NCBI GenBank assembly: GCA_001897995.1
Contig: MKRV01000258.1
Coordinates: 1-64,000 of the forward strand
Length of the DNA stretch: 64,000 nucleotides
Direction: 5' to 3'
Source of the DNA: Alphaproteobacteria bacterium 65-37
GTDB lineage: Bacteria > Pseudomonadota > Alphaproteobacteria > Reyranellales > Reyranellaceae
Part shown: piece by piece, positions 9,848-55,415 of the stretch
How the letters are laid out: every line of letters begins with the position of its first letter
How positions within the stretch are numbered: position 1 is the stretch's first letter
Position numbers and translations under genes: made by a program
Notes under the pieces: model-generated
Database searches by the model: none
What the model was told of the DNA's origin: nothing
What the model saw: only the letters and a program-made list of their open reading frames with translations

Positions 9848-10333
9848 TCAATCCCAGGCGTGGCGGTAGCGCGGCGCGCGCATCTCGGCCAGCGCCGCTT
9901 TGAGCTGTTCGCCCACGTGCAAGCGTTCGGCCGGCGCCAGGAAGCGGCCGATCACGGTGCGGTTGCCGCGCGAGCTCACGACCAGCCGCTCCTCAGTCGA
10001 CTCGATCTTCAGCCAGTAGGCGTCGAGGCGCTGCTCCTCGCGTTCGCCGTCGGGTGCGACGCGGGAGACGATCAGCTCGCGCTCGGTCAGCAGCAGGGTC
10101 TCGCTGCGGCGGGCGTCGAGGTAGCTACGCTTGAACAGCCACCACAGCAGCAGGATGTCGAGACCCATGAAGCCGAACACCGGCCAGGCCCCCAGCATCA
10201 TCATCGGCAGGCCGACCAGCAGATTGGCCGCGATGGCGCCGCGGATCAGCCAGCGGAAGGCCTCGGGCGAGAGGCTCCGGTGCGGCGTGAGTGAAGTGGC
10301 GAAATGAACCGCCGGAAGGGGCGTTTCAACCAT
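9848..10333 (-). CDS. DUF2244 family membrane protein
   Basis: Protein of 161 residues with two closely spaced membrane segments (residues about 29-68: LIRGAIAANLLVGLPMMMLG and VFGFMGLDILLLWWLF) and a C-terminal cytoplasmic domain with the DUF2244 pattern (LTERELIVSRVAPDGEREE, RLVVSSRGNRTVIGRFLAP). The family is common in Alphaproteobacteria, and no biochemical role is established. Its start codon is only 13 bases from that of nth on the other strand, so the two promoters must lie within or across each other's 5' ends. It converges with the regulator gene at 9845, leaving 2 bases. Confidence 0.88.
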   Translation of the reverse strand: MVETPLPAVHFATSLTPHRSLSPEAFRWLIRGAIAANLLVGLPMMMLGAWPVFGFMGLDILLLWWLFKRSYLDARRSETLLLTERELIVSRVAPDGEREEQRLDAYWLKIESTEERLVVSSRGNRTVIGRFLAPAERLHVGEQLKAALAEMRAPRYRHAWD

Positions 10334-10346
10334 GCTATGAGGCTAT

Positions 10347-10997
10347 ATGGCCCTGATGAAGCCCGCCGTCATCCCCGAGTTTTTCGCCCGCCTGCGGCAG
10401 GCGATCCCCGAGCCGGAAACCGAACTCGAATACGACAACGTCTACCAGCTCCTGGTCGCCGTCGTGCTGTCGGCCCAGGCCACCGACGCCGGCGTGAACC
10501 GAGCCACCAAGCCCTTGTTCGAGAAGATCAAAACCCCGGCCCAGATGGTGGCATTGGGCGAGAAAAAACTGATCGACTACATCAAGACGATCGGCCTCTT
10601 CCGCACCAAGGCCAAGAACGTGATCGCGCTCAGCCACCTCCTGATCGAGCGGCACGGCGGCGAGGTGCCGCACACCCACGCCGAGCTTCAGGATCTGCCG
10701 GGCGTGGGCCGCAAGACGGCGAACGTCGTCATGAACGTGGCCTATGGCGAGGCGACCATCGCCGTCGACACCCACATCTTCCGGGTCGGCAACCGCACCG
10801 GCCTGGCGCCGGGCAAGAATCCGTTGCAGGTCGAACTCAAGCTCCTGAAGCGCGTGCCTGAAGAGTTCCGGCTGCACGCCCATCACTGGCTGATCCTGCA
10901 CGGGCGCTACACCTGCAAGGCGCGCACGCCAATGTGCCCAACCTGCGTCGTGAACGACCTCTGCACCTTCAAGGGCAAGACGACGCTCGCGGCCTAG
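10347..10997 (+). CDS. nth: Endonuclease III
   Basis: Base-excision-repair DNA glycosylase/AP lyase for oxidised pyrimidines, 216 residues, about the normal length. The helix-hairpin-helix with the catalytic lysine is LPGVGRKTANVVMN, the catalytic aspartate is in VDTHIFRVGNR, and the C-terminal iron-sulfur loop has the exact C-x6-C-x2-C-x5-C spacing (CKARTPMCPTCVVNDLC). GAGG lies four bases before the ATG. Its stop overlaps the stop of the convergent gene within a shared CTAG. Confidence 0.97.
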   Translation: MALMKPAVIPEFFARLRQAIPEPETELEYDNVYQLLVAVVLSAQATDAGVNRATKPLFEKIKTPAQMVALGEKKLIDYIKTIGLFRTKAKNVIALSHLLIERHGGEVPHTHAELQDLPGVGRKTANVVMNVAYGEATIAVDTHIFRVGNRTGLAPGKNPLQVELKLLKRVPEEFRLHAHHWLILHGRYTCKARTPMCPTCVVNDLCTFKGKTTLAA

Positions 10998-47960: not shown

Positions 47961-48221
47961 GTGGCCAGTAGCGATCTGAAGACACCCAGCCGCGCGTTCG
48001 CCGTTGTGGTTGGTGTCATCGCGGTGCTGGTGATCGCGGTCGGCGTGCTGTTCGCATCGGGCACGGTCGAGTTCCAGAGGGACACGGCTCGGGCTCCGAT
48101 GGATCCGGCAGAAACCACCCGCCCGACCGACGAGCCGCGGACCCCGGCCATACCAATGCGGCCTGCCCCGGCACCAGCACCGACTGAAACCACGCCGTCG
48201 CCGGGGCCGGCTCAGCAATAG
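47961..48221 (+). CDS. Small single-pass membrane protein with Pro-rich tail
   Basis: Protein of 86 residues, start GTG at 47961, with AGGAGTAGGAA upstream overlapping the previous stop. It has a short cytoplasmic N-terminus, one membrane helix (AFAVVVGVIAVLVIAVGVLF) and a Pro/Thr/Ala-rich tail. I recognise no family. Its layout mirrors the preceding gene, though the sequences do not obviously align. Confidence 0.75.
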   Translation: MASSDLKTPSRAFAVVVGVIAVLVIAVGVLFASGTVEFQRDTARAPMDPAETTRPTDEPRTPAIPMRPAPAPAPTETTPSPGPAQQ

Positions 48222-48293
48222 GGCCGGCACCCTGGTCGGGCCCCTCGGCCGGCTCGAGCCGCCAAAAGCCGGGCCGACGAAAAGAGCCCGGAC

Positions 48294-48329
48294 AAAAAAA
48301 GAGCCCGACCGCGAGTTCCGCGATCGGGC
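48294..48329 (-). terminator. Intrinsic terminator for the patatin gene
   Basis: On the minus strand, GCCCGATCGCG pairs with CGCGGTCGGGC (one mismatch, 5-base loop, 48303-48329), followed by a CTC and then a run of seven T (48300-48294). It lies about 115 bases after the end of the patatin-like gene. No T-run follows on the plus strand, so it works in one direction. Confidence 0.8.
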
Positions 48330-48444
48330 GCACAGGCCTTAATCTCTGCAATCCCGAGTTAGCAGTTTGGCAGGCGGCGGACCAGAGCGTCCGTCGCTTT
48401 TTTCGTGCATAGCTTGCCTGCATTCGTTTCACTCGGAGCGAACA

Positions 48445-49872
48445 TCACCCGGATGGGGGACGGGCGGGCGCCGGGGAAGGCGCCGGTGGAACGATCGCAG
48501 GGCGAGTGACCCGCCCGCCGCGAATGGTGAGGCGCCAGGGGATGGGATCGGACCGGCCCATGGTGGCGCCATGATCCGCCAAACAACGCTGGAAGGTCGG
48601 ATCGAACATGCTGTCGGTGGCGTCGCCCCCGGGCACTTGGCAAGGGCCGGCCGGCGGCAGGCCGGGTTGCGGCACCTGGGCGCCATAGTCGATCAGCGAA
48701 GCGGCGTCGACATAGCGGGCGACGTTGCCGCGCTGGCGGCCGACGGTCAGCAGGGATTCGACGCTGGACCGCAGCAGCTGGTCGATTGCGATCGACGCGG
48801 TACGGCCGGCGATGCTCAAGAGGTCGAGGCCGTCCTTGCCGGTACAGTCGCGACCGACCTTCATGTCGCCGGAAACGACGATGGTGAGATCGAGCCGATT
48901 GTCCTGCAGCGCAGCCTGCAGCTGACGCGTGAGGAAGACATGCATGCGCACGCCGCCATCGACATAGAGGTTGTTGTCGATGAACTCCGGCGGGAAGCCG
49001 ATGGGAACGGCGGCTGAAGCCATGATGGCCGCGACCATGCGCTGACGTTTCTGCGCCATGGTCATGTCGGGATGCGCCGCGATCTCCGTGAGATCGAAGA
49101 TCTCAGGCACGCCGCTGTCGAGATTGGTCGCCATCACCGCAAGAGTGCGCCGACCGTTTTCTGCGGCAATCGCTTCGACCATTTCCTGGTCGAGGATATC
49201 CTCGACCTTTCGCCGCAACGGCGCGGTGTCGTAGAGCGACGTCGCGGTGAGCAATGACAGGGTCCCGCGCGACGTGAAGACGTCGTTGCTGCCGAGGTTG
49301 GAGTAGAGGTCGCGCAGCTTGGCCATGCGCTTGGCATCGCCAAGAAAGATCACCGGCGCGATCATCGAGCCGGTGCTCACTCCGGTAACGACGTCGAATT
49401 TCGGCCGCGGCTCCAGGTTGTTCTCGCCCCATCCCTGGAGAAATCCCACCGAGAAAGCACCCCAGGCACCGCCGGCAGAGACCGACAGTGCATAGGTCGG
49501 TGGCTTGGCCGGCGGCGCGACGGCACGAAGTGCGCCGGGTGGCGGAGGAGGCGGTGGCGCCTGCTGACGCGCTGCGGCCTGCGCCGCGATCTTGTTGCGA
49601 AAAGCTTCGTTGCGCACCGAGCCGCCGGCGGCCGTAGCAGGAGGCAATGGCGGCGGCGGTGCAGCAGCCGGCGGGAGACCGCCCGGCGGCACGGGCGCCA
49701 TCTGCGCCTGAGCATCGATCACGCTCTGATAGATGTCGGGCCAGGGATAAGGCGATCGCCCCGCCTTGGCGATCGATTTGCAGACCTCTCCCTGCAACGC
49801 TTCCGGCCGCGGCGCTCCGCAGCCAGCCACCAACAGCGCCATCGCGGCGCAAGCAAGCCGACGTTTCCTCAT
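48445..49872 (-). CDS. Patatin-like phospholipase, predicted lipoprotein
   Basis: Serine lipid hydrolase of 475 residues. The N-terminus (MRKRRLACAAMALLVAGC) ends in a lipobox with Cys18 as the likely lipidated residue, so the protein should be membrane-tethered outside the cytoplasm. A Pro/Ala-rich linker (about 58-123) leads to the patatin domain. It has an oxyanion loop GGAWGAF (134-140), nucleophile GVSTGS (Ser166) and the dyad Asp in DGG (Asp305). The linker includes a run of seven Pro. A Leu-Leu-Val-type lipobox and the linker resemble other outer-membrane lipases; the lipid substrate is unknown. A terminator follows at 48294-48329. Confidence 0.91.
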   Translation of the reverse strand: MRKRRLACAAMALLVAGCGAPRPEALQGEVCKSIAKAGRSPYPWPDIYQSVIDAQAQMAPVPPGGLPPAAAPPPPLPPATAAGGSVRNEAFRNKIAAQAAARQQAPPPPPPPGALRAVAPPAKPPTYALSVSAGGAWGAFSVGFLQGWGENNLEPRPKFDVVTGVSTGSMIAPVIFLGDAKRMAKLRDLYSNLGSNDVFTSRGTLSLLTATSLYDTAPLRRKVEDILDQEMVEAIAAENGRRTLAVMATNLDSGVPEIFDLTEIAAHPDMTMAQKRQRMVAAIMASAAVPIGFPPEFIDNNLYVDGGVRMHVFLTRQLQAALQDNRLDLTIVVSGDMKVGRDCTGKDGLDLLSIAGRTASIAIDQLLRSSVESLLTVGRQRGNVARYVDAASLIDYGAQVPQPGLPPAGPCQVPGGDATDSMFDPTFQRCLADHGATMGRSDPIPWRLTIRGGRVTRPAIVPPAPSPAPARPPSG

Positions 49873-49954
49873 ATCCCTCTCCCCAGAGGATCAGGTGCCG
49901 ATTGTGCGGACAGGGCGGGCCGGGCGTCCAGTGCCCGGCCCGCACATCTCCCGC

Positions 49955-50599
49955 TCAGGCCTTCTTCTTCCTTGCGGCCTTCCTCTTGGCGACCTTCTTC
50001 TTCGCAACCTTCTTCTTGGATGCTCTCCTCGGGAGCTTTCTTGCAGCGGCTCTCGTCCTGGCCAACGTCGACGAGAACGGATCCTCGCCCGGCGGATCCT
50101 CGCCCGAAGAACCTGGATCGTCTTCCATTGTGCCGTCCGTTTCGGGCGTCTGCAGGATGATCAGGGTGATGAACTGTGACGGATCCTGCGGCAGCGGAAT
50201 GCCGCTGGCGGTAACACGCAGATCCGTGCCGGTCACGGCAGCAAACTTGATTGCCTCGCAATCGTCGTCGAGCAACGCAGTCTTGATGAACTTCTTGATG
50301 TCTTCCGCTGCGTCGCTGCTGCCGCCAGGGGCGTTGTTCGCCTTGCTGTGCAGGGCCTTGAGGAATCCCCACCATCGCTTCGAATGAATGGTGGTCGGCC
50401 CTGCCGGATCACCCCAGATCCGCATGCGCCGAGCGATCTTTTGCAGTTTGAGACCGGCACTGCCGGGATCGAAACGTTTCAGCCGGCCCGGCGTGTTGCG
50501 GATCTTGGTGATGCCGCTGTTGGGCCCGCTGTCGCTGAACTTGAAATCCAGCCGGGCGACGATCTGCTGGATCTGCGCGTCGTTGAGCCAAAGTCCCAT
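49955..50599 (-). CDS. Unknown protein with histone-H1-like basic tail
   Basis: Protein of 214 residues that I do not recognise. The N-terminal part (about 1-100) is mixed helix with many aromatic and basic residues (KRWWGFLKALHSKANN). A middle acidic stretch (TMEDDPGSSGEDPPGEDPFS) separates it from a 27-residue Lys/Ala/Arg tail (KLPRRASKKKVAKKKVAKRK onward), like those of alphaproteobacterial H1-like DNA-binding proteins. The ATG at 50599 has GGGGAG nearby. Its first 121 bases overlap the upstream HEXXH gene in another frame. DNA or RNA binding through the tail is a guess. Confidence 0.7.
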   Translation of the reverse strand: MGLWLNDAQIQQIVARLDFKFSDSGPNSGITKIRNTPGRLKRFDPGSAGLKLQKIARRMRIWGDPAGPTTIHSKRWWGFLKALHSKANNAPGGSSDAAEDIKKFIKTALLDDDCEAIKFAAVTGTDLRVTASGIPLPQDPSQFITLIILQTPETDGTMEDDPGSSGEDPPGEDPFSSTLARTRAAARKLPRRASKKKVAKKKVAKRKAARKKKA

Positions 50600-51054
50600 G
50601 GTTCGCTCCCCTGTCGAGCTTTCAGGTGCGCGACTCGTTTCGCTTCTCGACGGCCGACGGTCGCGTAGCGACGGCCGAGCGATCTGCCGAACACGCTTTG
50701 CAAACCACAGACTGCCGCCCATTCGTCGGCGCGCTCCTCGGAGCTCAGCCAGAAATAGTGCGGGTGCAGGGGAGGGCCGCCCATATGGTGGCCGGTCTCA
50801 TGAGCCATCACCCAGGCAATACCGGCGATGGAGAGGCCGCGGTGCCGGGCGAGTCCACCATAGAGGCGAACATGCTTGTGGCCGTCGAGCAGGAAGGCTT
50901 GCGCGTTGCAGGTCGGTGACGACCACAAGATGTCGAAACGGATAACGGGAAAGTGAACGGCAAACTGCCCGACAATCCGTTCGATGCGGGTGCGATGCCG
51001 GAAATCTCGTAAAGATCGTAGATAACGCTTGGGCGTTGCTGATCCCAGGAGCAT
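50479..51054 (-). CDS. Putative zinc metalloprotease-like protein (HEXXH)
   Basis: Protein of 191 residues with a zinc-protease core: VMAHETGHHMGG (HEXXH at about residues 85-89) and a probable third ligand in SSEERADEWAAVCG, a spacing like gluzincins. Upstream sequence (RFDILWSSPTCNAQAFLLDG, VRLYGGLARHRGLSIAGIAW) looks like the strand that lines the substrate cleft. There is no signal peptide or membrane helix. The last 40 or so residues (Ser/Arg-rich) are read from DNA shared with the next gene and may not be part of the fold. Proteolysis is inferred from the motif only. Confidence 0.65.
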   Translation of the reverse strand: MLLGSATPKRYLRSLRDFRHRTRIERIVGQFAVHFPVIRFDILWSSPTCNAQAFLLDGHKHVRLYGGLARHRGLSIAGIAWVMAHETGHHMGGPPLHPHYFWLSSEERADEWAAVCGLQSVFGRSLGRRYATVGRREAKRVAHLKARQGSEPWDFGSTTRRSSRSSPGWISSSATAGPTAASPRSATRRAG

Positions 51055-51186
51055 GCCAAGGTCTCCAGCAATCGACGCTTGAACTTAGTGCGGGAAAGGC
51101 AAAGGAGTCTACAACTCGCACGAGCCGGACTCCTCTAACGTCGACGGAACCGCTAAGCTCAGGCTGCACCACCGTCGGGTGAGACG

Positions 51187-54100
51187 ATGCGCTGCGCGAG
51201 TTGTGAAACCGAAAACGCCCCGGACAACCGCTTCTGCAGTTCCTGCGGCGCGGCACTGGGGCGGTTATGTTCCTCGTGTTCGCATCACAATTTTGCCACA
51301 GCGCAATTCTGTACCCAGTGCGGCACGGCGCTCGAACGCATGCCGACATCGACCGCCCCACCGGCTGGCGAGCTCAAGCAGATCACCATTTTGTTCGCCG
51401 ACGTCTTCGGTTCGACTGAGCTGATCGAAGCACTCGACCCCGAGGAAGCCGACCGACGCCTGTCGCCCATCATCGACGCCATGAAGGAGGCGGTTCATCG
51501 GTTCGAAGGGACAGTCGTGAAGGTCCAGGGTGATGGCATCATGGCTCTGTTCGGAACGCCCAACCCACAGGAGGATCACGCGGTGCGCGCCTGCTGCGCG
51601 GCACTTGCGATGCAGGCGGCACTGAAGGCATTGCCTCCGGGAACCCCGTCGGTGCGAGTCGGACTGCATTCCGGCGAAGTCCTGGCTCGGGTGGTCGCGA
51701 ACGATTTCGCCAACGAGCTCGACGCCACCGGCCTTGCCGTTCACATCGCCAACCGCCTGCAGAACCTGGCGCCACCTGGCAGCGTCGCCCTCTCGGCATC
51801 GACCTTGCGCGGCGCCCGGCAGTTCGTTTCCGTCGAATCGCTCGGTACCCAGCAGATCCGTGGCCTGTCGGCGCCGACCGAGATCTTTCTTCTCACCGGC
51901 CTGCGGCGCGGCCCCAACAGCCAGCGCTTCAGCGGTGAGGCCGGCCGGTCCGCCTTCGTCGGCCGTGACGCCGAGCTTCTGCTGCTCGAACGCGGCCTCG
52001 AGCGGGCATCAGAAGGCGACGGCTGCGCGGTCGGGCTGGTGGCCGACGCCGGCATAGGCAAGAGCCGGCTCTGCTTCGAGTTCGCTGAACGGTGCCGCAG
52101 CCGCGGCGTGCGCGTACTGGAAGGCCGCGCCCTGGCGCACAGCCGGGCCACGCCCTTCGAGGCGGTGATCGATGTCGTGAAGGCCTATTTTGAGATCACG
52201 TCCGACGACACACCGGAACGCGGACGCAGCAAGATCGATTCGGTGCTGAAATCGATCGGCGCCGACTTCGGAACCGATCTTGTTCTGTTGTTCGATTTTC
52301 TCGGCGTCGGCGATCGCGCCGTCACCGTGCCGCGCAGCGACCCGGCGGCGCGACGCGAGCGACTGAACGGCCTGTTCCGGCGGCTCATTCGGACAGCCGG
52401 CACGAGGTCGCCGGCCGTCATCCTGGTCGAAGATCTGCATCTGCTCGATTCGGGCAGCGAGTCGCTGCTCGAGGTGCTCTCCGACGCGCTGCCTGGCACA
52501 CGCATCCTGCTGGTGGTGAACTTCCGGCCCGGCTATGCCGCCAACTGGATGCACAGCGATCACTACGATCAGTTTTCGCTGGCGCCCCTGCGGCGCACTG
52601 CTGCCGATTCCTTAGCCGCTCGCCTGCTGGGAGGCGACGAATCGACAGTGCCGCTGCTCGCCTTGATCGCCGATCGGGCGTGCGGCAATCCGCTGTTCAT
52701 CGAGGAGCTGGTGCGCAAGTTCGAGGAGAGCGGCCATCTTGCCGGCGAGCAGGGCGCCTATCGCCTGCTGCGCCCACCCGACATGCGCCTGGTCCCCGAT
52801 ACGGTGCAGGCGATCATCGGCGCGCGAATCGACGGGCGGACCGAGGCCGAGAAATCCATCCTGCAAACCGCCGCCGTGATCGGCCGCGAGTTCGCCCTGC
52901 CGGTGCTGGCGCGGCTGGTCGGCAGCCTCGCCGCGCAGCTTGGCAACATGATGCATCGCCTTGCCGGCGCCGGCCTCGTCTATGAGAGCGGCACGGCGGG
53001 CAGCGAGGGCCTCTTTGCCTTTCGGCACCCCATGGTGCAGGACGTCGCCTATCGCTCGATTCTTTCGGAAAAGCGGCGCAACCTGCATGCCGCGGTCGCC
53101 ACTGAACTCGAGAAGACGCTGCCCGATCCCAACGGCGCGCAGGCGAGCTTTCTCGCCTACCACTGGGAAGAGGCCGGAAATCCTCTGCAGGCCGCGTCCT
53201 ACAGCATGAAGGCCGGCACTTGGCACGGTACGCGCGATCCGGCCCAGGCACTGCAGGCCTGGAAGCACGCGCGACGGCTGCTGGTCGGCCTGTCATTGCA
53301 GGGACCGCAGCGTTATCCGCTGCTGATGGCGAGCGGCCAGATCGTGAACCTGGCCTGGCGTGAGGGGCTGACGGCCGCCGACGTCGAACCCTATTACGCG
53401 GAGGCGCTAGCGATCGCCCGCGAACTCGGGGATATGCGTGCCGTCACCCTGGTGACGGCGGCTTATGGCCGAGCGCTGGCGGCCAGCGGTTCCGCCGAGG
53501 ACTATGTGACGACCGTCGCCGGCGTGCTGGCGATGGTCGACGACAGCCGCCCACATGCGAGCCTGAAGGCCGTGTTGACGGCAATCCTCTGCCATGCCTT
53601 GCGGCTGGCCGGCGACTTGCCGCGGGCGCTCGAAGCCAACGACCGTGCGCTGATGCGCGTGACGGATATCGACGAAATCGACGAGCAGACCCTGGGTTTC
53701 AGCGTCGCCGTCTGGGTAAGGGGCATGCGCGCGCAGATCCTTGCCATGATGGGACGGTTCGAAGAGGCGCGACCGCTTGTCGATGCCCTGATCGCTGCCG
53801 ACGAAGCGACCGTAGACGTGCTACATCGCCTGCAGGCGCATGCCGTGCAATGCGACATCGCCTGGGCGACAGGCGACCTCGAGTGTCTGCGAGCCCATAG
53901 CGATCAGGCGCTGCAACTCGCGGAACGCAGCGGCAATCCGTACCTGCTGGTCTATGGCAAGGGCTACGCCGGGCTCGCCCAGGCCATGCGCGGTGCTCAC
54001 TCCGACGCGAGCACGACCTTGAGCGAAGCATTGGCCTACGCGCGACGACGCAATGCCGGACTGGAGAACGAGGCGCGCCTGCTCGCCGACCTCGCCCATG

Positions 54101-54300
54101 TCCAGCTGCGTGCCGGCCTGACCGATCGCGCGCGCGGCACCGCCGAGGAGGCGGCAGCCGTCGCCCGTCGCCGTGGCGCCAAGGTATGGTTGGCCTACAG
54201 CGAATGGCTGATGGGTGGCCCAGGCTCGCCATCATTCAATCTGCTGGTCGAATCGACCGGCGCGGAGCTGTTGCGGCATCTCACTCATCCGGGCGGATGA
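51187..54300 (+). CDS. Zinc-ribbon / class III cyclase / AAA-ATPase / TPR signalling protein
   Basis: Multidomain protein of 1037 residues. Two CxxC zinc-ribbon pairs (Cys 3, 6, 17, 20 and 28, 31, 42, 45) precede a class III nucleotide cyclase domain (about 62-238) with metal Asp72 in ILFADVFGST and Asp116 in VKVQGDGIMALFG. The usual transition-state Asn is His186 in VHIANRL, while Arg190 is kept. A STAND-type ATPase follows (P-loop ADAGIGKSR, 286-294, where the first Gly is Ala; Walker B VILVEDLHLLD), then helical TPR-like repeats to the end. This layout is common in soil bacteria; cyclic AMP synthesis is likely but not certain. Confidence 0.93.
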   Translation: MRCASCETENAPDNRFCSSCGAALGRLCSSCSHHNFATAQFCTQCGTALERMPTSTAPPAGELKQITILFADVFGSTELIEALDPEEADRRLSPIIDAMKEAVHRFEGTVVKVQGDGIMALFGTPNPQEDHAVRACCAALAMQAALKALPPGTPSVRVGLHSGEVLARVVANDFANELDATGLAVHIANRLQNLAPPGSVALSASTLRGARQFVSVESLGTQQIRGLSAPTEIFLLTGLRRGPNSQRFSGEAGRSAFVGRDAELLLLERGLERASEGDGCAVGLVADAGIGKSRLCFEFAERCRSRGVRVLEGRALAHSRATPFEAVIDVVKAYFEITSDDTPERGRSKIDSVLKSIGADFGTDLVLLFDFLGVGDRAVTVPRSDPAARRERLNGLFRRLIRTAGTRSPAVILVEDLHLLDSGSESLLEVLSDALPGTRILLVVNFRPGYAANWMHSDHYDQFSLAPLRRTAADSLAARLLGGDESTVPLLALIADRACGNPLFIEELVRKFEESGHLAGEQGAYRLLRPPDMRLVPDTVQAIIGARIDGRTEAEKSILQTAAVIGREFALPVLARLVGSLAAQLGNMMHRLAGAGLVYESGTAGSEGLFAFRHPMVQDVAYRSILSEKRRNLHAAVATELEKTLPDPNGAQASFLAYHWEEAGNPLQAASYSMKAGTWHGTRDPAQALQAWKHARRLLVGLSLQGPQRYPLLMASGQIVNLAWREGLTAADVEPYYAEALAIARELGDMRAVTLVTAAYGRALAASGSAEDYVTTVAGVLAMVDDSRPHASLKAVLTAILCHALRLAGDLPRALEANDRALMRVTDIDEIDEQTLGFSVAVWVRGMRAQILAMMGRFEEARPLVDALIAADEATVDVLHRLQAHAVQCDIAWATGDLECLRAHSDQALQLAERSGNPYLLVYGKGYAGLAQAMRGAHSDASTTLSEALAYARRRNAGLENEARLLADLAHVQLRAGLTDRARGTAEEAAAVARRRGAKVWLAYSEWLMGGPGSPSFNLLVESTGAELLRHLTHPGG

Positions 54301-54374
54301 GGACGGCGTAGGGCCTGTGAGAGCGCGCCGACCGTCCGGTCGCTTATCTCCGGCCATGAGCTCCGCAAGAGGTG

Positions 54375-55283
54375 TTAGCCAAGTTCTGCCTTCAGCGCCT
54401 CACCGAGCTGGCGAAACGTTTCCTTGCGTGCCGAGCTGCGGCGCCAGACGAGACCGATGCGGCGGTGGGGCGTCTTGCCCGAGAGCGGCCGAACGGCGAC
54501 GTCGAGGCCGCGGACGATGCCGGCATCGAGGGCCATCTGCGGCATCAGGGTGACGCCGAGATCGTTGGCCACCATCTGCGCCAGGGTATGCAGGCTGGTG
54601 CCGTTGAAGGCCGCATTGCGCCGCGCGCCTTCGAGCTCGCAAGCTGCCAGCGCCTGGTCCCGCAGGCAGTGGCCGTCCTCCAGCAGCAGCAGGTTCTCGC
54701 CTGCGATGTCGGCAGGCGTCGCGGCTTCGGCCTGAGGCAGGTCGTGCCCCGCGGGATAGACGACGGAGAAACGATCCTCGCCGAGATCCATCACCTCGAG
54801 ATCGCCCAATGCGTAGGGTAGTGCCAGCAGCACAGCGTCGAGTTCGCCGGCCTCCAGTCGTTCGATGAGCCGCGCGGTCTGATCCTCGCGCAGGTAGAGC
54901 TGCAGCTTGGGATAGGTCTCGCGCAGACGCGGCAGGGCGCGCGGCAACAGGAAGGGACCAATGGTCGGGATGACGCCGAGATGCAGCGGCCCGGCCATCG
55001 GTTCGCGGGCCGCCCGCGCCAGATCGACCAGCTCTTCGGCGCCCGACAGCAGGCCGCGCGCGCGCTCCGCCAGGTCACGGCCGAGCGGCGTCGGCACGAC
55101 CGTGCGCTTGGTGCGCTCCAGCAGGATGGCGCCCAACAGGTCCTCGAGTTCCTGGATGCCGGCGCTCAAGGTCGACTGGCTGACATTGCAGGCCGAGGCC
55201 GCCTGGCCGAAGTGACAGCGATCAACCACGGCAACCAGATACCGTAGCTGTCGCAGGGTCGGAGTTGGTTTCACCGATCTCAT
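54375..55283 (-). CDS. oxyR: Hydrogen peroxide-sensing LysR regulator OxyR
   Basis: LysR-type activator of 302 residues. The N-terminal winged helix (TLRQLRYLVAVVDRCHFGQA, NVSQSTLSAGIQELEDLLG) is followed by the regulatory domain carrying the peroxide switch LLLEDGHCLRDQALAAC. Cys206 and Cys215 have the same nine-residue spacing as Cys199 and Cys208 of E. coli OxyR, so oxidation to a disulfide is expected to activate it. It is divergent from ahpC across 132 bases containing an AT-rich inverted repeat. Confidence 0.95.
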   Translation of the reverse strand: MRSVKPTPTLRQLRYLVAVVDRCHFGQAASACNVSQSTLSAGIQELEDLLGAILLERTKRTVVPTPLGRDLAERARGLLSGAEELVDLARAAREPMAGPLHLGVIPTIGPFLLPRALPRLRETYPKLQLYLREDQTARLIERLEAGELDAVLLALPYALGDLEVMDLGEDRFSVVYPAGHDLPQAEAATPADIAGENLLLLEDGHCLRDQALAACELEGARRNAAFNGTSLHTLAQMVANDLGVTLMPQMALDAGIVRGLDVAVRPLSGKTPHRRIGLVWRRSSARKETFRQLGEALKAELG

Positions 55284-55299
55284 GTAATCGTTTTTTTCG

Positions 55300-55332
55300 A
55301 TTATTAAATTCGGTATTTTGCGATTTAATAAA
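55300..55332. promoter_or_regulatory. AT-rich inverted repeat between oxyR and ahpC
   Basis: ATTATTAAAT (55300-55309) and ATTTAATAAA (55323-55332) form arms matching at nine of ten positions with a 13-base spacer. The surrounding 55290-55340 is strongly AT-rich in a GC-rich genome. A -10-like TATTAG follows at 55333-55338, with no -35. An activator-dependent ahpC promoter bound by an OxyR tetramer is the natural reading. Confidence 0.6.
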
Positions 55333-55415
55333 TATTAGAACGCTCCTAAGTCTTAGTGCGTCGCCGAGGTCAGCCGTCGCCTCCTCGGCACGACCGAAAT
55401 CCAAGGAGTATCGAA

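Follow-up and report, generated by a model that had tools for sequence, protein, structure and literature searches.

A linked gene module of a cyclase/ATPase protein, a partner protein and an exchangeable enzyme in Reyranella and Bradyrhizobium

The DNA analysed here (the window) is a 64,000-nucleotide stretch of contig MKRV01000258.1 from the 7.15 Mb genome of Alphaproteobacteria bacterium 65-37. It carries a gene pair, encoding a small protein with an HEXXH motif (a putative peptidase) and a partner protein with a basic tail, that diverges from a gene for a large cyclase/ATPase protein. Comparison of related loci gives good support for these linked genes as a module: from their linkage, the cyclase and the partner are its core, and the HEXXH gene is one of several interchangeable third genes. 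With middling confidence, we propose that the large protein is a sensor, the partner its dedicated adaptor and the third gene product an exchangeable output enzyme, the pair being the output half of the module.

Results

The gene pair and its overlap

The first-pass annotation described two minus-strand open reading frames that overlap out of frame, and both are present in the sequence. The HEXXH ORF spans 191 codons (50479-51054, minus strand) and the partner gene encodes 214 amino acids (49955..50599, minus strand), so that the two share 121 bases (50479-50599). The partner ATG lies at 50599 and is preceded on the same strand by AGGGGAG (50606..50612), which reads as a Shine-Dalgarno-like sequence. 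The motifs named in that annotation were all found as well. The HEXXH protein contains the zinc-binding motif HETGHH (50785..50802, minus strand) and, downstream of it, ERADEWA (50716-50736, minus strand), part of an EERADEWA stretch (50716..50739, minus strand) that holds the candidate third zinc ligand, Glu106, and an AD.WA motif. The partner has an acidic linker and a 27-residue C-terminal tail of Lys, Arg and Ala (49958..50038, minus strand).

The pair had been regarded as joined by its overlap. The overlap exists, but three close relatives (L019, L020 and L021), whose HEXXH proteins are 80-83% identical to that of the window, all carry TAG directly after HEXXH codon 144, where the window has AAA and the frame continues for 47 codons into the partner gene. 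Residues 145-191 are therefore best read as a private read-through tail (codons 145-191 and stop, 50479..50622, minus strand), and the overlap that it holds is private to the window genome and probably meaningless; we rejected it as a functional feature. The conserved coding part, codons 1-144 (50623..51054, minus strand), gave dN/dS values of 0.10-0.15 against the three relatives, and the partner gave 0.15-0.19. Both frames are coding by this measure, and the HEXXH codons 1-144 and the partner are each under purifying selection as judged from codon substitutions.

The intergenic region between the divergent HEXXH and cyclase genes (51055..51186) was read in the sequence, and a simple scan found no sigma-70-like site in it; no Rfam match was obtained across 48000-55400. 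On the other side, the pair adjoins a gene (48445-49872, minus strand) whose product is patatin-like and has what looks like a lipoprotein signal (VAGC). It matches CBASS phospholipase models of NCBIfam (E 3e-18, below the cut-off) and PADLOC (8e-21). We rejected this gene as a part of the module: among the loci examined it was seen beside the pair only in the three closest relatives.

The divergent gene encodes a cyclase/ATPase protein

The large protein from which the pair had been said to diverge is encoded at 51187..54300 on the plus strand (1037 amino acids), and a Pfam scan confirmed its nature. The order of parts is double zinc ribbon, class III nucleotide cyclase, AAA_16 ATPase and TPR; DZR, Guanylate_cyc (E 1.5e-21, 77.3 bits against a cut-off of 21.9) and AAA_16 scored above their cut-offs and the TPR match was weak. 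The catalytic residues of a class III nucleotide cyclase are present (both metal Asp residues and the transition-state Arg). In 48/48 aligned orthologues the two metal Asp residues are kept, as are a His/Arg pair, Walker A Lys/Ser and Walker B Asp. The residue before GDG, which may bear on adenine specificity, is Lys in 37 and Arg in 9 of these 48 proteins. The cyclase is predicted to make cAMP. Its dN/dS against the same three relatives is 0.12-0.13, which indicates purifying selection on this gene too.

The cyclase-AAA-TPR stretch resembles the TOMM system kinase/cyclase fusion TIGR03903 (E 5.9e-79), although its 266.2 bits do not reach the cut-off of 705.75. Unlike that fusion, the module protein showed a double zinc ribbon in place of a kinase domain when scanned with Pfam.

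Linkage of the three genes

The survey covered 54 non-redundant loci in Reyranella, Bradyrhizobium and alphaproteobacterial MAGs related to them, with ORFs taken from a stop-to-start scan rather than a gene caller. Searches seeded with the HEXXH protein gave 35 loci with 36 HEXXH genes (the near copies L023 and L027 each counted). The first-pass annotation was to be discarded if the two genes never co-occurred or the HEXXH frame was non-coding; the frame is coding (above), and the partner was present in 35/35 of these loci, within 166 bp in 34/35; in the remaining one, L078, it lies on the far side of the cyclase gene. The cyclase was present in 30/35, the exceptions being L023, L027, L029 (at a contig edge), L034 and L082. 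Left out of these counts were L090, a distant match, and four loci (L042, L049, L088 and L089, the last two from Bradyrhizobium) with an M48-like domain and no partner found.

Searches seeded with the partner led to the same neighbours. In Reyranella, 17 partner genes were found in 16/61 genomes, with a cyclase beside 16/17. In Bradyrhizobium, 20 genes (21 rows, one gene being split) were found in 17/117 genomes, with a cyclase beside 20/20; 11 of these partners go with an HEXXH gene and 9 with a methyltransferase gene.

Searches seeded with the cyclase complete the set. Among 60 Bradyrhizobium genomes, 18 cyclases scored above 600 bits and 18/18 had a partner. Four of the 18 partners have diverged, with E values from 0.002 to 3e-8 when searched for in a small set; each cyclase has exactly one enzyme type, HEXXH in 8 cases and methyltransferase in 10. 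Among 46 Reyranella genomes, 11 cyclases scored above 600 bits. Eight have a clear partner, L124 and L126 a weak one and L122 a truncated remnant, and no recognised enzyme was found beside the cyclases of L122, L123 and L126. Lower-scoring cyclases (368-415 bits; L102, on a 3.1-kb contig, L128, L129 and L130) had a partner in 0/4 cases. Gene order and strand vary widely among loci while the linkage persists, and this linkage strongly supports the earlier suggestion of a regulated module tied to the cyclase/ATPase protein.

Some loci depart from the simple arrangement. In L122 an intact cyclase (1466 bits) is accompanied by no more than the C-terminal portion of a partner (genome G005, 10018-10392), which still has the acidic linker and the Lys tail; this looks like module decay. 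L076 has one cyclase flanked by two HEXXH-partner pairs and L083 has two partners with one HEXXH gene and one cyclase, arrangements that suggest recent duplications or nested modules.

Rank correlation of protein distances was highest for HEXXH and partner (rho 0.69 in Reyranella, 0.64 in Bradyrhizobium), followed by HEXXH and cyclase (0.48 and 0.35) and by partner and cyclase (0.26 and -0.05). The ranking suggests that the tightest functional tie is that between HEXXH protein and partner, with shared descent contributing to the values, and the weak partner-cyclase correlation speaks against tight direct contact between these two proteins.

Exchange of the third gene

HEXXH and methyltransferase genes never share a locus (0/35 and 0/14 in the 54 non-redundant loci). 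The SAM methyltransferases match Methyltransf_25/12/11; their start codons overlap the partner stop by 4 bases in L166, L167, L168 and L173. A P450 lies within the methyltransferase ORF in L173 and L127 and nearby in L169. Other enzymes occur in the same place: an M14 carboxypeptidase (E 8e-52) adjoins the partner in L125. The window genome itself encodes another cyclase of this clade (L124, contig C79, 768 bits), with a gene for a beta-lactamase-fold hydrolase 25 bp upstream (E 1.5e-54) and a weakly matching partner downstream.

Three genomes (G698, G723 and G729) hold one HEXXH and one methyltransferase module each, at separate loci. A cyclase tree from a quick search, with L023 as a long branch that represents a different cyclase, requires 8 changes of enzyme label compared with a mean of 19.2 after shuffling. 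At least two of these are switches between M48-type and methyltransferase modules, and the methyltransferase loci fall in two separate clades.

The HEXXH protein resembles M48 peptidases

Pfam M48 (PF01435) matches 24/24 aligned HEXXH members at E up to 1, the best at 3.4e-5. The window protein scores E 0.0033-0.0064 (16.8-17.7 bits), under the curated cut-off of 20.3, and for this reason we call it M48-like. HExGHH is kept in 36/36 module HEXXH genes. At the position of Glu106, 25 of the 36 have Glu, 5 have Asp and 6 have Gln; with Gln at the third-ligand position, some of these proteins may be inactive.

Structure prediction gave a confident AF2 model of the HEXXH protein (pLDDT 96.1), whose nearest folds are of the M48/minigluzincin kind. 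In a VIA comparison, BepA (113 aligned, 3.9 A), Ste24p (105 aligned, 3.0 A) and jannalysin (100 aligned, 3.5 A) each reached Z 7.6, lower than the 8 that counts as middling in this tool; selecase ranks next, and Wss1 and SPRTN lie lower at Z 5.1-5.7. Foldseek returned weak matches only and none under E 1e-3, and a sequence search of solved structures gave nothing convincing for this protein or for the partner. Sequence and model together make it a probable M48-like zinc peptidase, soluble by prediction. It shares with M48 peptidases and minigluzincins the HExxH motif and, less surely, the downstream E..AD and the predicted fold. Members of the M48 family are mostly membrane-bound or periplasmic; unlike these and the minigluzincins, the HEXXH protein has only 144 residues, shows no membrane or TPR part and always comes with a partner gene.

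In the four loci left out of the counts, the M48-like domain lies in larger proteins after a Cys-rich stretch (ORFs of 479 aa in L049, 483 aa in L089, about 620 aa in L042 and about 790 aa in L088). The HEXXH motif is degenerate in L042, L088 and L089 and intact in L049. We take the Cys-rich stretch to be Hint/intein-like in appearance; Pfam gave no support for such an identity at E 0.01 in L049 and L089.

The partner protein

No curated family of Pfam, NCBIfam, PHROGs or PADLOC accounts for the partner; its Pfam matches are scattered over one member each, none being common to more than one. The AF2 model (pLDDT 80 overall) has helices followed by three strands as the predicted core, and by this model some 150 residues of the partner would form a folded core that is conserved. 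Searches with it returned nothing under E 0.3 in Foldseek and nothing at Z >= 5 in VIA, which may have missed a known fold. The N-terminus (MG, then N/T..T....LN..F) is the most conserved part. On these searches, with no Pfam entry and no fold match, the partner would represent a new protein family.

Partners of HEXXH and methyltransferase modules are homologous (hhalign 98.7%, E 2e-16). The profile that defines the family (A8) was built partly from loci that it later found. A profile from M48-type partners only (A6) recovers 10/14 methyltransferase-type partners, with E values no higher than 1.4e-4; of the other four, two score 0.077 and two are missed, and their membership comes from A8 and synteny.

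The Lys/Ala-rich tail of the window partner resembles that of histone H1-like proteins. By a criterion of at least 5 Lys or Arg in the last 12 residues, 38/52 partners have a basic tail, compared with 1/34 HEXXH, 3/14 methyltransferase and 0/47 cyclase proteins. It is missing in 13/36 partners at HEXXH loci (present in 23/36) and found in 14/14 partners at methyltransferase loci, so the tail belongs to the partner and not to the protease; the M14-type partner of L125 is without it.

Genomic site and distribution

In Reyranella, 14 distinct loci have the module beside ileS (L022, L024, L025, L028, L031-L033, L035, L091, L122, L123, L125, L126 and L178), 13 of them also beside ribF. The enzyme at these 14 loci is HEXXH in 10 and M14 in 1, and none was found in 3, as if the ileS site were a fixed slot that holds the module with varying enzymes. 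The window module is not at this site.

Searches were also run beyond these two genera. A class-wide search of 385 genomes gave 3 weak matches only, and a phylum-wide search of 299 genomes gave 4 matches beyond the window, among which G514 is a full module; in 278 genomes of the order of G514, the one match was G514 itself. The flanks examined look like ordinary metabolic genes, and neither a transporter nor a modification operon was seen in them. We rejected a phage origin, as an HEXXH search of viral_contigs gave 49 candidate stretches and none was confirmed, and a plasmid origin, as the plasmid collection gave one distant Streptomyces M48 protein for HEXXH. That collection held no relative of the methyltransferase-type partner (one partner as query). 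The Streptomyces match (L203) is on the linear plasmid NZ_CP108710.1 of Streptomyces canus, where a stretch of 4 kb holds two genes for M48 family metalloproteases; the product of one has weak similarity to the HEXXH protein (34.6% over 81 residues).

Discussion

In the mechanism that we favour, the sensor would be the large core protein, which combines a double zinc ribbon with a class III adenylyl-type cyclase, an AAA_16/STAND-like ATPase and TPR. Its TPR/AAA part would sense a cellular signal, ATP-dependent assembly would turn on the cyclase and a cyclic nucleotide would be made. The partner, as adaptor, would bring enzyme and sensor together; alternatively, its tail might dock the enzyme to an acidic surface, for example nucleic acid. 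Upon the signal the enzyme would be released or directed, and in the window module this output would be a soluble, minimal M48-like zinc peptidase. Here the linkage, the homology, the exclusive exchange of enzymes, the purifying selection and the intact catalytic residues are read directly from the sequences; the peptidase activity, the making of cAMP, the activation of the cyclase, the adaptor role and the direction of signalling are inferred.

Another reading, which we consider rather unlikely, makes the partner the substrate of the enzyme, to be cleaved, methylated or perhaps oxidised by P450 like a RiPP precursor or a histone-like protein; the cyclase would then have a regulatory role. It is kept at this level because all the swapped enzymes could modify peptides or proteins. 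The overlap of methyltransferase starts with partner stops would fit it, as would the Lys-rich tail in every methyltransferase-type partner and its lack in the M14-type one, a co-variation of HEXXH and partner that exceeds that of either with the cyclase, and the score of the cyclase on the TOMM kinase/cyclase model. That score, however, is far from the cut-off (266 vs 706 bits) and comes without a kinase domain; a folded core under purifying selection is unlike a typical precursor peptide, the flanks examined yielded no transporter or modification operon, and the substrates of Methyltransf_25/12 domains are often small molecules.

The idea of a cyclase with exchangeable effectors is known from Pycsar and CBASS, and the module might likewise be an anti-phage or conflict system in which a STAND-type sensor cyclase triggers a toxic effector enzyme. 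The class III cyclase and its exchangeable enzymes resemble PycC with its effectors PycTM and PycTIR, and the patchy spread over Reyranella and Bradyrhizobium genomes and the duplicated or shuffled modules would agree with such a role, as would weak matches to the PADLOC PycC profiles (E 5e-13 or weaker), which arise through the common cyclase domain only. The module differs from Pycsar in having AAA and TPR parts on the same chain as the cyclase, in using peptidases or methyltransferases as its enzymes and in its dedicated partner; no PycTM or PycTIR effector was found beside the cyclase, and neither HEXXH protein nor partner has a PADLOC match. The ordinary look of the flanks examined, the use of one housekeeping site (ileS/ribF) at 13 distinct Reyranella loci, the lack of relatives in viral_contigs (HEXXH as query) and, one distant Streptomyces M48 match apart, in the plasmid collection (HEXXH and one partner as queries) also argue against a conflict system, which we regard as improbable. 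We think still less of the DNA-associated protease system that the first-pass annotation raised as a possibility, taken here to mean that the H1-like partner would bring a Wss1/SPRTN-like peptidase to DNA. The tie to the cyclase has stood and a protease is plausible from sequence and model; the HEXXH protein is predicted to have a small HExxH peptidase fold, with SPRTN and Wss1 among its structural neighbours, and nearly two thirds of the partners at HEXXH loci carry the tail. Nothing specific speaks for its link to DNA: BepA, Ste24p and jannalysin outrank SPRTN and Wss1, Pfam scans recognised no DNA-binding domain, any DNA part would sit in a separate protein, unlike in these DNA-protein-crosslink proteases, and the tail goes with the partner, being absent from many HEXXH loci and present at all methyltransferase loci. 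That the genes stay together through common descent only, with no functional tie, is very improbable. The frequent ileS-ribF site in Reyranella does mean that part of the linkage is shared descent, but the linkage holds across two genera, at differing sites and in all gene orders and strands, the enzyme was exchanged at least twice between cyclase clades, and single genomes hold both kinds.

The sensor-adaptor-enzyme reading, which we prefer, may tentatively be extended to an undescribed class of bacterial signalling systems, in which a sensor ATPase-adenylyl cyclase works through a basic-tailed adaptor of new fold and swappable output enzymes. We found no description of the gene set in open-licence literature, passages of PMC2887384 included. 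In these soil and plant-associated bacteria a genome has several large cyclase-ATPase-TPR proteins, judged from multiple matches in single genomes, and we found no described output for them. If the extended reading is true, the outputs would include an M48-like peptidase, an M14 carboxypeptidase, a beta-lactamase-fold hydrolase and a SAM methyltransferase with or without P450, and the swap of one gene would rewire the sensor core to other chemistry, sometimes at the same chromosomal site. The same core coupled to different enzymes would amount to a natural experiment, and a clade with, almost always, a partner and one swappable enzyme may offer a handle on what cyclase-ATPase-TPR sensors control.
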